Shown: piece after piece, positions 16,746 through 49,042 of the stretch | How positions within the stretch are numbered: the stretch's first letter is position 1 | How the letters are laid out: each line of letters opens with the position of its first letter | Source of the DNA: Chloroflexota bacterium | GTDB taxonomy: Bacteria > Chloroflexota > Limnocylindria > Limnocylindrales > CSP1-4 | Direction: 5' to 3' | Assembly (NCBI GenBank): GCA_015478725.1 | Contig: JADMIG010000001.1 | Coordinates: 474,748 to 538,747 of the forward strand | Length of the DNA: 64,000 nt | Translations under genes and position numbers: made by a program | Notes under the pieces: generated by a model | Told to the model about the DNA's origin: nothing | The model's database searches: none | What the model saw: the letters and a program-made list of their open reading frames with translations, nothing else

Positions 16746-17507
16746 TCAGGCGAAGACGATCCGCAGTGGTCCATCGAACGACCGGTCGAGCTCGATCCGG
16801 TCGCTGGTCACGAGCGCCAGGGCGCGAACGGACCGCCTCCCGGGAGGCCGCACCACGACACGGTAGTCTCCAGCCGGCGGCAGGGCGACCGGCAGGGCGA
16901 ACGACACGATCGAGCCGTTCGGGGCCGCCGACGCCGCTCCGACCACGGCGACCGGACGTCCGAGGAGGCGTTCCGCCCGGGCGAGATCGCCGGCGGCGAT
17001 CGCGTCGCGCACGTCCGTGCTGCGGACCGCTCCGCCGTCCAGCGTGAACGGCGGCACGACCAGGACCTCGAAGCCGAGCTCGTCGCCGAGGGCGGACACG
17101 GTCGCCGGCGTTCCCCGTCGCTCGTGCCCGAATGCCGCATCCGGCGTCATGAGGAAGCCGGCGATCTCGACCCGGGCGGCGATCCGGCCGATGAAGGTGT
17201 CGTACTCCGTCGTGCGGAGCGCCTGGTCGAAATGCTGGACGACCGTGGTTTCGACAGCCGCCGCCGCGAGCCGCTCGAGACGCTCCGCCGGATCGCAGAG
17301 GAGGGCCGGGGCCTGACCGACGAGGATCTCGTCGGGATGATGGTCGAACGTCACGACCGTCCCGCGCGCGCCGCGATGGCGTGCCTCGCGGACCAGGCGG
17401 CGGAGGAGATAGGCATGGCCGAGATGGAGGCCGTCGAAGACGCCCACGACGACGAAGACCGGTCCCCGCTCGGCGGTCAGCGCATCGACGCCCGCGACGA
17501 CCGCCAT
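16746..17507 (-). CDS. ribF: RibF-like FAD synthetase lacking the kinase domain
   Basis: The N-terminal part is an FMN adenylyltransferase (FAD synthetase) of the RibF family, transferring AMP from ATP to FMN. It shows GVFDGLHLGH (22-31), TFDHHPDE (53-60) and VRSTDVRDAI (161-170) followed by LLGRP. Bacterial RibF normally continues for about 125 residues as riboflavin kinase, with a GFPTANL-type motif. Here only about 70 residues follow and that motif is missing, so kinase activity is doubtful. No other frame restores it. The start is ATG 17507; an ATG at 17537 would overlap truB. In Bacillus the homologue ribC also sits between truB and rpsO. Confidence 0.88.
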   Translation of the reverse strand: MAVVAGVDALTAERGPVFVVVGVFDGLHLGHAYLLRRLVREARHRGARGTVVTFDHHPDEILVGQAPALLCDPAERLERLAAAAVETTVVQHFDQALRTTEYDTFIGRIAARVEIAGFLMTPDAAFGHERRGTPATVSALGDELGFEVLVVPPFTLDGGAVRSTDVRDAIAAGDLARAERLLGRPVAVVGAASAAPNGSIVSFALPVALPPAGDYRVVVRPPGRRSVRALALVTSDRIELDRSFDGPLRIVFA

Positions 17508-17520
17508 CGGAGCGGTCCGT

Positions 17521-18477
17521 TCAGGCGCGCGATCCATCGGCCACCGCATCGATGAGCACCTTCTCCGGAGCGAGACGACCCTCGGTCCAGCGGGCGATCG
17601 CGATGAGTCGATCGTGGTCGTCCACGAGGCGCAGCCGGCCGTCCGGTTCGTCCGGCGCCACGATCGGCTGCGTCGGGCGGATGAACTGGCCCCGCGAGAC
17701 GGCAGCGACCTCGGCGGGACCGAGGACGACCCTTGGGAACCGCTCGAGGCCGGTCGCGGCTGGCAGGAGGAGATCGGCGAGGCGTGACGGCTCGCTCGTC
17801 GCGGCCACCCGGATCTCGTCGATGCCGATCGCATCCTCGAGGCGGAACGGGCCGCTCTCGCGGCGGATCAGGACGCCGAGGTACGCGCCGCTCCCCGTCC
17901 GTTGGCCGAGATCCCGGGCGAGCGCCCGGATGTACGTGCCCGCCGAACACTCGACGTCGAGGACGGCCAGTGGACGGTGGGGGTCGGCGTCGTCCCACGC
18001 CACAAGCTCAAGGCGATGGACCGTCACGTGCCGCGGCCGGAGCTCGGGCGTCAGTCCGGCCCGAGCCAGGGCGTAGGCACGGCGTCCGCCGACGTTGATG
18101 GCGGAGAAGGCCGGCGGGACCTGCTCGAGCTCGCCGCGAAACCCGTCGAGCTCGCGCTCGACGGTCGTGCGATCCGGAGCCGGCCCGGTCGGGGTGAGCT
18201 CACCATCGAGATCATCGGTCGTCGAATGGGCGCCGAAGCAGACCGTCGCCCGATACACCTTGCGGTCGCCAAGGTGATACTCGACGAGGCGGGTCGCCCG
18301 GCCAAGGAAGATCGGGAGGACGCCGCTCGCGAATGGGTCGAGCGTCCCGCCGTGGCCGACGCGCCGGATCCCCGACAGCCGCCGGACGAGCGCGACGACA
18401 TCGTGCGAGGTGGGGCCGGTCGGCTTCGCGACGACGAGGATTCCGGACGCGTCCGCCTCCCGGAGCGCCTCGGTCAC
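17521..18477 (-). CDS. truB: tRNA pseudouridine-55 synthase
   Basis: TruB isomerises U55 to pseudouridine in the T-loop of tRNAs. The 318-aa protein carries GHGGTLDPFASGVL, with catalytic Asp47, and the conserved YRATVCFGAHSTTDDLDG and CSAGTYIRALARDLG segments. A C-terminal PUA-like part follows from about 245. The GTG start overlaps the nrnA stop by 4 nt (GTGA). It belongs to the nusA-infB-rbfA-nrnA-truB-ribF run. Confidence 0.97.
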   Translation of the reverse strand: MTEALREADASGILVVAKPTGPTSHDVVALVRRLSGIRRVGHGGTLDPFASGVLPIFLGRATRLVEYHLGDRKVYRATVCFGAHSTTDDLDGELTPTGPAPDRTTVERELDGFRGELEQVPPAFSAINVGGRRAYALARAGLTPELRPRHVTVHRLELVAWDDADPHRPLAVLDVECSAGTYIRALARDLGQRTGSGAYLGVLIRRESGPFRLEDAIGIDEIRVAATSEPSRLADLLLPAATGLERFPRVVLGPAEVAAVSRGQFIRPTQPIVAPDEPDGRLRLVDDHDRLIAIARWTEGRLAPEKVLIDAVADGSRA

Positions 18478-46946: not shown

Positions 46947-47150
46947 CTACGACGAGGCGTGCTCGTCGCTCGATCGCTTGAGCTCGATCGCCGGGCGTCC
47001 GTCGTAGTAGCCGCAGTTCGGGCAGGCATGGTGCGGCCGCTTGGGCTCGTGACAGTGCGGGCACGCATCGAGCTGCGGGAGACTGATCGCGAGATGCGCT
47101 CGCCGCTCCCCCTGTCGCGCGTGCGAGACGCGTCGCTTCGGGACACCCAT
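46947..47150 (-). CDS. rpmF: 50S ribosomal protein L32 (zinc form)
   Basis: L32 is a small zinc-ribbon protein of the large subunit. The 67 residues start MGVPKRRVSHARQGERRAH and hold the cysteine pairs Cys30-Cys33 and Cys43-Cys46, so it is the zinc-binding C+ form. The ATG has AAGGAG about 10 nt upstream. It follows yceD, its usual partner, after a 193-nt spacer with a hairpin and a promoter. Confidence 0.97.
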   Translation of the reverse strand: MGVPKRRVSHARQGERRAHLAISLPQLDACPHCHEPKRPHHACPNCGYYDGRPAIELKRSSDEHASS

Positions 47151-47343: not shown

Positions 47344-47919
47344 TCAGGAGGGGGACGCCTCCCGGAAGGCCGCCAGCGCCGCGAGCCGTGGGTCGATCTC
47401 CGTGTCCGGGTGCTCGTGGGGACCGGTCGCGAGCTCCACGCCGCAGATCGGGCAGAGGCCCGGGCAATCCGGCCGGCACAGCGGAGCGATCGGCTCCGCA
47501 AGCGACAGGAGGTCGCGGACCGGGCCGCCGAGCGCCAGCTCATGGTGGTCCGTGAGGCGGACGATCTCGGGATCCGTGCCGATCGGCAGGACGAGGCCGG
47601 TCGCGATGTCGACGGAGGGCCGCACCTCCTCCTCGAGATCGACGGTGACCGGGATGTCGATCGCCCGGAGGCAGCGGCTGCATTCGGCCCACAGCCGCCC
47701 CGTCAGCCGACCGGTCGCGAAAAGCCCGCGCTCGGTGCGGATCGCCTCGATCGTGCCCTCGAGCGGTCCGGACTGGCGGAGCCCATCAGCAAGAGTGAGC
47801 ACGACACCACGCACCGGGAACGTGCGCCGCGATCCGGCCGGCTCGGACATGAGTCTGGCGACGTTGAACGTGAGGGCTCCCGCCGGATCCGGATCCGGTC
47901 GGCGATCGGTGTCGATCAC
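47344..47919 (-). CDS. yceD: YceD/DUF177 protein
   Basis: YceD-family protein associated with L32 and 23S rRNA accumulation; its biochemical role is not settled. The 191-aa protein has CSRC (80-83) and a second cysteine set, Cys148, Cys152, Cys156, Cys159 (CRPDCPGLCPICG), that probably binds zinc. The GTG start overlaps the SepIVA-like stop (GTGA). It precedes rpmF, the standard arrangement. Confidence 0.92.
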   Translation of the reverse strand: MIDTDRRPDPDPAGALTFNVARLMSEPAGSRRTFPVRGVVLTLADGLRQSGPLEGTIEAIRTERGLFATGRLTGRLWAECSRCLRAIDIPVTVDLEEEVRPSVDIATGLVLPIGTDPEIVRLTDHHELALGGPVRDLLSLAEPIAPLCRPDCPGLCPICGVELATGPHEHPDTEIDPRLAALAAFREASPS

Positions 47920-48458
47920 GCGCGTCGGGCCGGCCCCACCTCGGCCGCACGGGGATCGTCGTACGGTTCGTCGTCGCGGTCGTCCGGCGACGCTTCGCCG
48001 TCCTGGAGCGCGGACCGCCGCTCATCGAGCAGGGCGATGCCGCGCTTGATGCTCTGGAGGGTCTTCACGACGTCTCCCTCCAGGCCGATGAGGACGGACG
48101 CGGCGTACTCATCCGCTCCTCGCCTGATCTCCTCGCCGTCGGCCTCGGCCTCGCCGACGATCCGACGGCTCTCGGCCTCCGCGACCTGGGTCAGTCCACG
48201 TTCGTCGATGAGGAAGGCTGCCTGCTCCTGGGCCCTGGCGATGATCTGCTCCGCCTCCTCCTGCGCTTTCTCGATGATCCGCTCGCCCTCGGAGTTGATC
48301 CGTTTCGCGGCTCGGACCTCCTCGGGCACGGCCACGCGCAGCTGGTCGACGAGGTCGAGCGCGGCGGCCTGATCGACGACGACGCTGCTCGTCAGGGGCA
48401 GCTTCTTGCCGTTCGCGATGATCGACTCGAGGCGCTCGACGAGGAAGATGATGTCGAT
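47916..48458 (-). CDS. SepIVA/DivIVA-like coiled-coil protein with apparent AUC start
   Basis: 180-aa, mostly helical protein. Residues 2-50 (DIIFLVERLESIIANGKKLP and then DQLRVAVPEEVRAAKRI) resemble the N-terminus of actinobacterial SepIVA, a septation factor whose gene also neighbours yceD and rnc. A charged coiled coil (50-125) with KAQEEAEQIIARAQEQA follows, then an acidic tail. Similar genes are often labelled ATPase or F0-b-like. In-frame sequence from the upstream stop at 48504-48506 contains no ATG, GTG, TTG or CTG. The only start fitting both homologues and Shine-Dalgarno (AGGAGG, 8 nt upstream) is ATC at 48458. GTG 48335 would remove the conserved N-terminus. Confidence 0.8.
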   Translation of the reverse strand: MDIIFLVERLESIIANGKKLPLTSSVVVDQAAALDLVDQLRVAVPEEVRAAKRINSEGERIIEKAQEEAEQIIARAQEQAAFLIDERGLTQVAEAESRRIVGEAEADGEEIRRGADEYAASVLIGLEGDVVKTLQSIKRGIALLDERRSALQDGEASPDDRDDEPYDDPRAAEVGPARRA

Positions 48459-48502
48459 GGAACCGCCCTCCTGTCTGCGGGTGCGCGACGCGGGTTGTCG
48501 GG

Positions 48503-48530
48503 ATTATGGCACGGAGGAAGGCTCCGTCAG
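48503..48530 (-). promoter_or_regulatory. Promoter for the SepIVA-like gene (CTGACG-16-CATAAT)
   Basis: -35 CTGACG (48525-48530, overlapping the coaD stop) and -10 CATAAT (48503-48508), preceded by TGC, are spaced by 16 nt. The leader to the ATC start is about 38 nt and contains the AGGAGG. Architecture is identical to the ffh promoter. Confidence 0.6.
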
Positions 48531-49042
48531 CCGGTCCTCCGCCCACCGAGCGATGCGAGCGCCTCGAGCGCCGCCGACGGAACCATCCCGGACACGTCGC
48601 CCCCGAACGCGGCGATCTCCCTGACGAGGCTCGAGCTCACGTAGCCGTGCTCGAGCGAGGTCATGAAGAAGACGGTATCGATCGACGGCGCGAGGACGCG
48701 GTTGTTGTGGGCGAGCTGGATCTCGGATTCGAAGTCGGAGATCGCGCGGAGGCCGCGGACGATGAACCCCGCCTCGTGTCTCCGACACAGGTCCACCGTG
48801 AGCCCGTCGAACGCCTCGACCGAGACGCGGCCGGCGGTCGACGCGTCGAACCCGCTGTCAAGTGCGTGCCGAATGATCTCGATGCGACGGGCCGCCGGCA
48901 GGAGCGGCTGCTTCCGCGGATTGGCGAGGACGCCGATGACGAGGCGGTCGAAGACGGCGGCCGATCGACGGACGACATCGAGATGCCCGTTGGTCACCGG
49001 ATCGAACGAACCCGGGTAGACCGCGACGGTGGCGGCGCTCAT
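48527..49042 (-). CDS. coaD: Phosphopantetheine adenylyltransferase
   Basis: CoaD transfers AMP from ATP to 4'-phosphopantetheine in coenzyme A synthesis. The 171-aa protein has YPGSFDPVTNGHLD (9-22, including the nucleotidyltransferase HxGH-type motif TNGH) and FIVRGLRAISDFESE and SSSLVREIAAFGG. The ATG overlaps the rsmD stop by 4 nt. The rsmD-coaD pair is widespread. Confidence 0.97.
   Translation of the reverse strand: MSAATVAVYPGSFDPVTNGHLDVVRRSAAVFDRLVIGVLANPRKQPLLPAARRIEIIRHALDSGFDASTAGRVSVEAFDGLTVDLCRRHEAGFIVRGLRAISDFESEIQLAHNNRVLAPSIDTVFFMTSLEHGYVSSSLVREIAAFGGDVSGMVPSAALEALASLGGRRTG

Follow-up and report, generated by a model that had tools for sequence, protein, structure and literature searches.

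A gene for a SepIVA-like coiled-coil protein in a Chloroflexota genome very probably begins translation at an AUC codon, and comparison across related soil and water bacteria of its class, very probably Candidatus Limnocylindria, argues that it is the weakness of the start, not the identity of the codon, that selection keeps. To our knowledge, few bacterial genes keep a non-canonical start by selection; sepIVA adds a gene for a morphogenesis-type protein whose weak start is kept across most of a class, and the turnover of codons at this position separates "weakness" from "codon". The reading that we favour, and regard as fairly probable, is that initiation of the sepIVA-yceD pair is discriminated by IF3 at a true AUC start, which would predict an IF3 regulon beyond infC.

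Organization of the locus

The window, i.e., the whole 64,000-nt stretch of DNA that was analysed, comes from one draft genome of 151 contigs, and the following features lie on its minus strand.

48527..49042, minus: coaD, upstream of sepIVA (TIGR01510, 178 bits)
48525..48530, minus: -35-like hexamer CTGACG, spacer 16 nt, called by eye in this locus alone
48503..48508, minus: -10-like box CATAAT, read in the sequence, with the in-frame stop upstream of sepIVA inside it
48506-48504, minus: in-frame stop TAA ahead of the ATC, read in the sequence
48467..48472, minus: Shine-Dalgarno (SD) AGGAGG, separated from the ATC by 8 nt
48456..48458, minus: start codon ATC (AUC) of the SepIVA-like gene, read in the sequence
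47916..48458, minus: gene for the SepIVA-like (DivIVA-like) coiled-coil protein, 180 codons plus stop
47918-47916, minus: stop TGA of sepIVA, read in the sequence
47344..47919, minus: yceD (DUF177; PF02620, E 1.5e-22)
46947..47150, minus: gene after yceD, placed by coordinates and protein, which we take from its sequence to be rpmF (ribosomal protein L32)

The order on this strand is coaD, the promoter-like pair, AGGAGG, ATC, the sepIVA frame, yceD and rpmF, with a distance of 68 nt from the end of coaD to the AUC; the identities of coaD and YceD are firm. The CATAAT box would place the 5' end of the mRNA about 35-40 nt ahead of the AUC. yceD begins at a GTG (47919) that shares bases with the sepIVA stop (GTGA), an arrangement through which yceD is likely coupled translationally to sepIVA; among the relatives with enough downstream sequence, an open yceD start lies at -1 in 45 of 91 loci and within 23 nt in 81 of 91. 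Folding energy at the sepIVA start was no better than that of shuffles (z 0.05), and Rfam returned nothing credible at the locus, its one snoRNA match lying far below the cut-off.

A sequence-only reading of the window had placed the upstream stop, the ATC at 48458 and the AGGAGG 8 nt before it as listed here, downstream of a promoter, and all were confirmed, the promoter as the promoter-like pair. Its further claim that no ATG, GTG, TTG or CTG occurs between the stop and residue 42 holds for the first three, the first of them in frame being GTG 48335 at residue 42, and fails for CTG, which occurs in frame at residues 20, 22 and 40 (48401, 48395 and 48341); between the TAA and the ATC itself there is no in-frame CTG.

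Identity of the protein

The predicted structure comprises two short helices followed by one long helix (residues 3-16, 30-43 and 46-154; pLDDT 87, pTM 0.44). Pfam DivIVA matches 19 of 25 family members, with a best E of 0.0085; the protein encoded in the window itself reaches 14.1 bits where the cut-off is 28. The suggestion of a septation-type factor is a guess drawn from this DivIVA-like resemblance. No match among solved structures in the PDB was obtained by predicted fold, and no convincing one by sequence. The name "SepIVA-like" is drawn from the weak DivIVA similarity, the architecture and a presumed synteny with Rv2927c, in which sepIVA stands beside a DUF177 gene and rnc. The DivIVA-like N-terminal part and the coiled coil of the actinomycete protein (Rv2927c, MSMEG_2416) may have their counterparts in the protein described here; unlike for sepIVA here, the available parts of its literature mention no weak start. 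According to the portion available of PMC11571769, the role of SepIVA varies even among actinomycetes, and S. venezuelae can do without the protein, which is linked there to polar growth rather than to division.

Start codon among relatives

A relative was detected in 42 of 61 near genomes, in 147 of 177 genomes of the class and, in a sample of 300 genomes covering the phylum, in 265; none was detected in the 19 genomes searched (G037-G055) of f2, a family with small genomes that belongs to the same order. In a first set of 40 relatives, which leaves out the genome's own copies (L001, L002), the homologous codon was ATC in 29, ACG in 3, CTG, TTG and ATG in 2 each, and ATA and GTG in 1 each. 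For the class, 208 loci were read and identical ones merged into 135 distinct sequences, the window's own included; these are the loci retrieved, not all 147 genomes with a match. The homologous codon there is ATC in 58, ACG in 20, CTG in 17, GTG in 14, ATA in 13, TTG in 7, ATG in 4, and AGC and AGG in 1 each, such that a weak start (ATC, ACG, CTG or ATA) is present in 108 and ATG or a codon one base away from it in 133. In the loci with AGC and AGG (L245, L246), a canonical start lies one or two codons ahead of this position. The proposed use of AUC is supported by this comparison, and ATG in all relatives, which the sequence-only reading had named as evidence against it, gives way to ATG in 4 of 135.

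A tree of 174 rows was built with FastTree without the start residue, with many of its forks open, and nine changes between weak and canonical starts are needed over the whole of it. A supported clade (97*) comprises 110 rows, of which 57 are ATC, 20 ACG, 17 CTG, 12 ATA and four canonical; within it, a subclade of family f4 and allied named MAGs is ACG throughout (19/19), CTG occupies 17 rows of a 21-row subclade, and ATA arises several times. Because 106 of the 110 rows are weak while weak codons are repeatedly swapped for one another, weak initiation appears to be kept by selection. Sister family f3 uses mostly GTG or TTG, with one ATA and mostly strong SDs, so weak initiation is not essential to sepIVA. 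Two MAGs titled Clostridiales and Thermomicrobiales (L155, L138) group inside the Limnocylindria clade, and these labels are probably wrong.

Outside the class, 40 hand-chosen loci, mostly the best match per family, have ATG in 21, ATC in 8, GTG in 4, ATA and GTC in 2 each, and three others. No in-frame canonical codon lies upstream in L308, L325, L344 and L326 (ATC) or in L343 (ATA, with its stop far upstream), and these firm cases indicate that, in several parts of the phylum, weak sepIVA starts either evolved or were retained; L310, L311, L312 and L337 (ATC) and L328 (ATA) are ambiguous, having a canonical codon within 10 codons upstream.

The four canonical rows of the 110-row clade form one group (L038 TTG, L040 ATG, L273 GTG, L274 GTG). 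In a simple scan for -10-like boxes, a box ends 8-9 nt ahead of the start in all four, matching 5/6 positions in three and 4/6 in L273, whereas a box of at least 5/6 was found 22-53 nt ahead of the start in 85 of 108 weak loci. The transcripts of these four are probably leaderless, and L041 (ATG, family f5), with a 4/6 box at 10 nt, may be another case; as the clade records one evolutionary event, the leaderless exceptions are suggestive only. In E. coli, some leaderless mRNAs are translated less when IF3 is raised and better in relaxed infC mutants, according to the available part of a review (PMC9031893) that also cites work in which leaderless translation requires IF3.

Evidence for the start site

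In 77 of the 108 weak loci there is no in-frame ATG, GTG or TTG back to the visible stop, which falls within 15 codons upstream in 17 of the 77; in the remaining 31, either a canonical codon lies upstream in frame or the stop is not visible, and these loci by themselves give no proof of the start. Heterozygosity at the three codon positions of the weak loci is 0.24, 0.13 and 0.36 over codons 2-20, i.e., mostly third-position variation, and 0.67, 0.69 and 0.68 over codons -14 to -7 of the same frame, which is unconstrained; the conserved N-terminus does begin at the ATC, as had been proposed, the preceding sequence not being conserved. At the nucleotide level, GA is invariant at positions 4-5 and SD purines are prominent at -13 to -9. 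The predicted first helix, starting at residue 3, fits a protein beginning at residue 1, and a start at GTG 42 would cost two helices. Some loci have an ATG at codon 4 (IDIM), but it lies far from the SD, and no canonical start was found for sepIVA that is in frame and fits the conserved N-terminus. Gene callers restricted to ATG, GTG and TTG would trim about 40 residues off the protein in such genomes.

The duplex energy of the window SD is -14.2 kcal/mol with an assumed anti-SD; in the background, for which the best of several starts was taken per gene, the median is -7.4 and 1 of 105 genes matches that value. Canonical sepIVA loci have SDs as strong as those of weak loci (medians -11.9 vs -11.5), so strong SDs go with the gene itself and are not peculiar to its weak starts. 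A strong SD before a weak codon, a feature of IF3-controlled genes of the infC and sigR type, is present in sepIVA.

Controls in neighbouring and genome-wide genes

Among 80 named loci, a gene was scored as lacking a canonical start when no ATG, GTG or TTG occurred between the upstream stop and the sixth codon after the aligned start; this applied to coaD in 0/74, rsmD in 0/71, yceD in 5/76, plsX in 1/66, rpmF in 1/69 and sepIVA in 46/80. Similarly, 112 genes in 363 kb of the window's own genome, each with an orthologue in at least one of two relatives, were searched for conserved protein before the first canonical start, a test blind to genes with an in-frame canonical codon upstream. Of the 33 genes flagged, two are clear, infC (A1117) and sepIVA (A1366), where the stretch ahead of the first canonical start is coding-like in base composition and overlaps no other gene; one more, A274, is described below, and the rest were dismissed on composition or overlap, partly by eye. 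General use of AUC starts in the genome was rejected, only these two being clear among the 112.

IF3 is encoded in the genome (TIGR00168, 188.5 bits), and its own infC has an ATC start with a stop two codons upstream. At the homologous position, infC lacks ATG, GTG and TTG in 52 of 52 class loci (e.g., L117); its starts in the class are ATC, ATA, CTG and CTA and, with a one-codon alignment shift, ATT in f2 and ATA in f3. The 48 tRNA matches yield 46 distinct tRNAs, including one of initiator type with anticodon CAT (L105) and one elongator Met CAT. A tRNA-Ile TAT is present (L054, G000:C11), and neither of the only two CAT tRNAs is an obvious lysidine-type Ile tRNA.

Mechanism and alternative explanations

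In the proposed mechanism, the strong SD would recruit the 30S subunit to the AUC, which would pair imperfectly with the initiator tRNA, such that IF3 would reject many of the complexes. Output of the SepIVA-like protein would consequently be held low and would rise when there is little IF3 for the number of 30S subunits that are initiating, and YceD output would partly follow through the overlap. Discrimination by IF3 at this AUC is proposed by analogy with E. coli and Streptomyces biochemistry, and we infer the low output, the coupling and any physiological signal for the pair. A bolder extension, tentative and in our judgment less likely than not, would make sepIVA-yceD an IF3-sensing operon that links the growth or division machinery and large-subunit rRNA accumulation to initiation capacity, IF3 sensitivity being what selection keeps; lineages would then move among AUC, AUA, CUG and ACG, and the one with regained canonical starts would have gone leaderless, also IF3-repressed.

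The most serious competitor, to which we give a substantial minority chance, is that a genuine AUC serves only to keep the dose low and constant, or its ratio to YceD fixed, and senses nothing. Weak codons generally reduce output, as in Listeria rsbW (ATG > ATA > ATT) in the available part of PMC13068326; expression of S. venezuelae sepIVA is described as low and constitutive in that of PMC11571769; and f3 relatives start with GTG or TTG. However, a weak SD would be a simpler way to a low dose, yet that of sepIVA is among the strongest, and the only other clear weak-start gene, infC, is a known IF3 sensor.

Translation from elsewhere, i.e., from GTG 48335, an upstream codon or by frameshifting, is what standard start-codon rules would choose in the case of the GTG; it is highly improbable given that residues 2-41 are conserved as protein across 25 aligned sequences, with third-position variation, that in several loci a stop stands at only -2 to -7 codons and is followed by no canonical start before the homologous codon, and that the upstream sequence is not conserved. 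A lineage that reads AUC routinely through a special initiator tRNA with a GAU anticodon might account for the two genes of the genome that start with AUC, but AUC starts are not general there, the sole initiator-type tRNA is CAT, Ile GAT and Ile TAT were judged ordinary elongators, and a GAU initiator would leave the ACG, CUG or AUA of relatives unexplained; no initiator-like tRNA with GAU was found among the 46 distinct tRNAs, a few percent of the genome being missing, and this idea is most improbable. A sequencing or assembly error turning ATG into ATC, conceivable for a single draft genome of 151 contigs, is refuted by 107 other distinct sequences, drawn from many independent MAGs, that carry this weak codon or a different one.

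Relation to known systems

A study of all 64 codons was reportedly carried out by Hecht et al. in 2017. For IF3-discriminated initiation at sepIVA, one close parallel is infC (AUU, AUC, AUA or CUG start, IF3 autoregulation), where, as in sepIVA, a weak start has long been kept while weak codons were exchanged; infC differs in closing a feedback loop on its own product, whereas nothing known connects the SepIVA-like protein with IF3. The nearest worked example is Streptomyces sigR, which according to the available part of PMC5472188 has a GTC start, is repressed by IF3 and has a coupled partner, rsrA; sigR thus resembles sepIVA as a non-infC gene with a strong SD (AGGAGGTG in sigR), a weak start and a coupled partner (for sepIVA, probably yceD). 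In the same source the sigR start is GTC in 32 and GTT in 2 of 34 Streptomyces, so the weak start is kept in one genus, whereas that of sepIVA is kept in most of a class; the codons are GUC and GUU as opposed to AUC, ACG, CUG and AUA, and the IF3 effect is measured for sigR and inferred for sepIVA. In Listeria, rnhC (ATC) and infC (ATT) are core genes with non-canonical starts stated to be experimentally confirmed in the part available of PMC13068326; rnhC is a different gene from sepIVA, and no conservation beyond the species is mentioned there. Searches of the open-licence PMC literature listed no paper describing a weak start for sepIVA or within Chloroflexota.

A further flagged gene

One of the flagged genes, A274, which we take to be ymdB-like (MIGDIIGK...), also has coding-like composition before its first canonical start, but 130 of the 231 nt overlap another conserved gene. 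Three genomes conserve the stretch just before it (G000:C1 about 452700; L359 about 17500-18000), including a reading frame that runs on into the gene, and the first residue expected for the family presumably falls on a cysteine codon. Rfam gave no match to this stretch, which may be a leader that has escaped recognition or a further unusual start.
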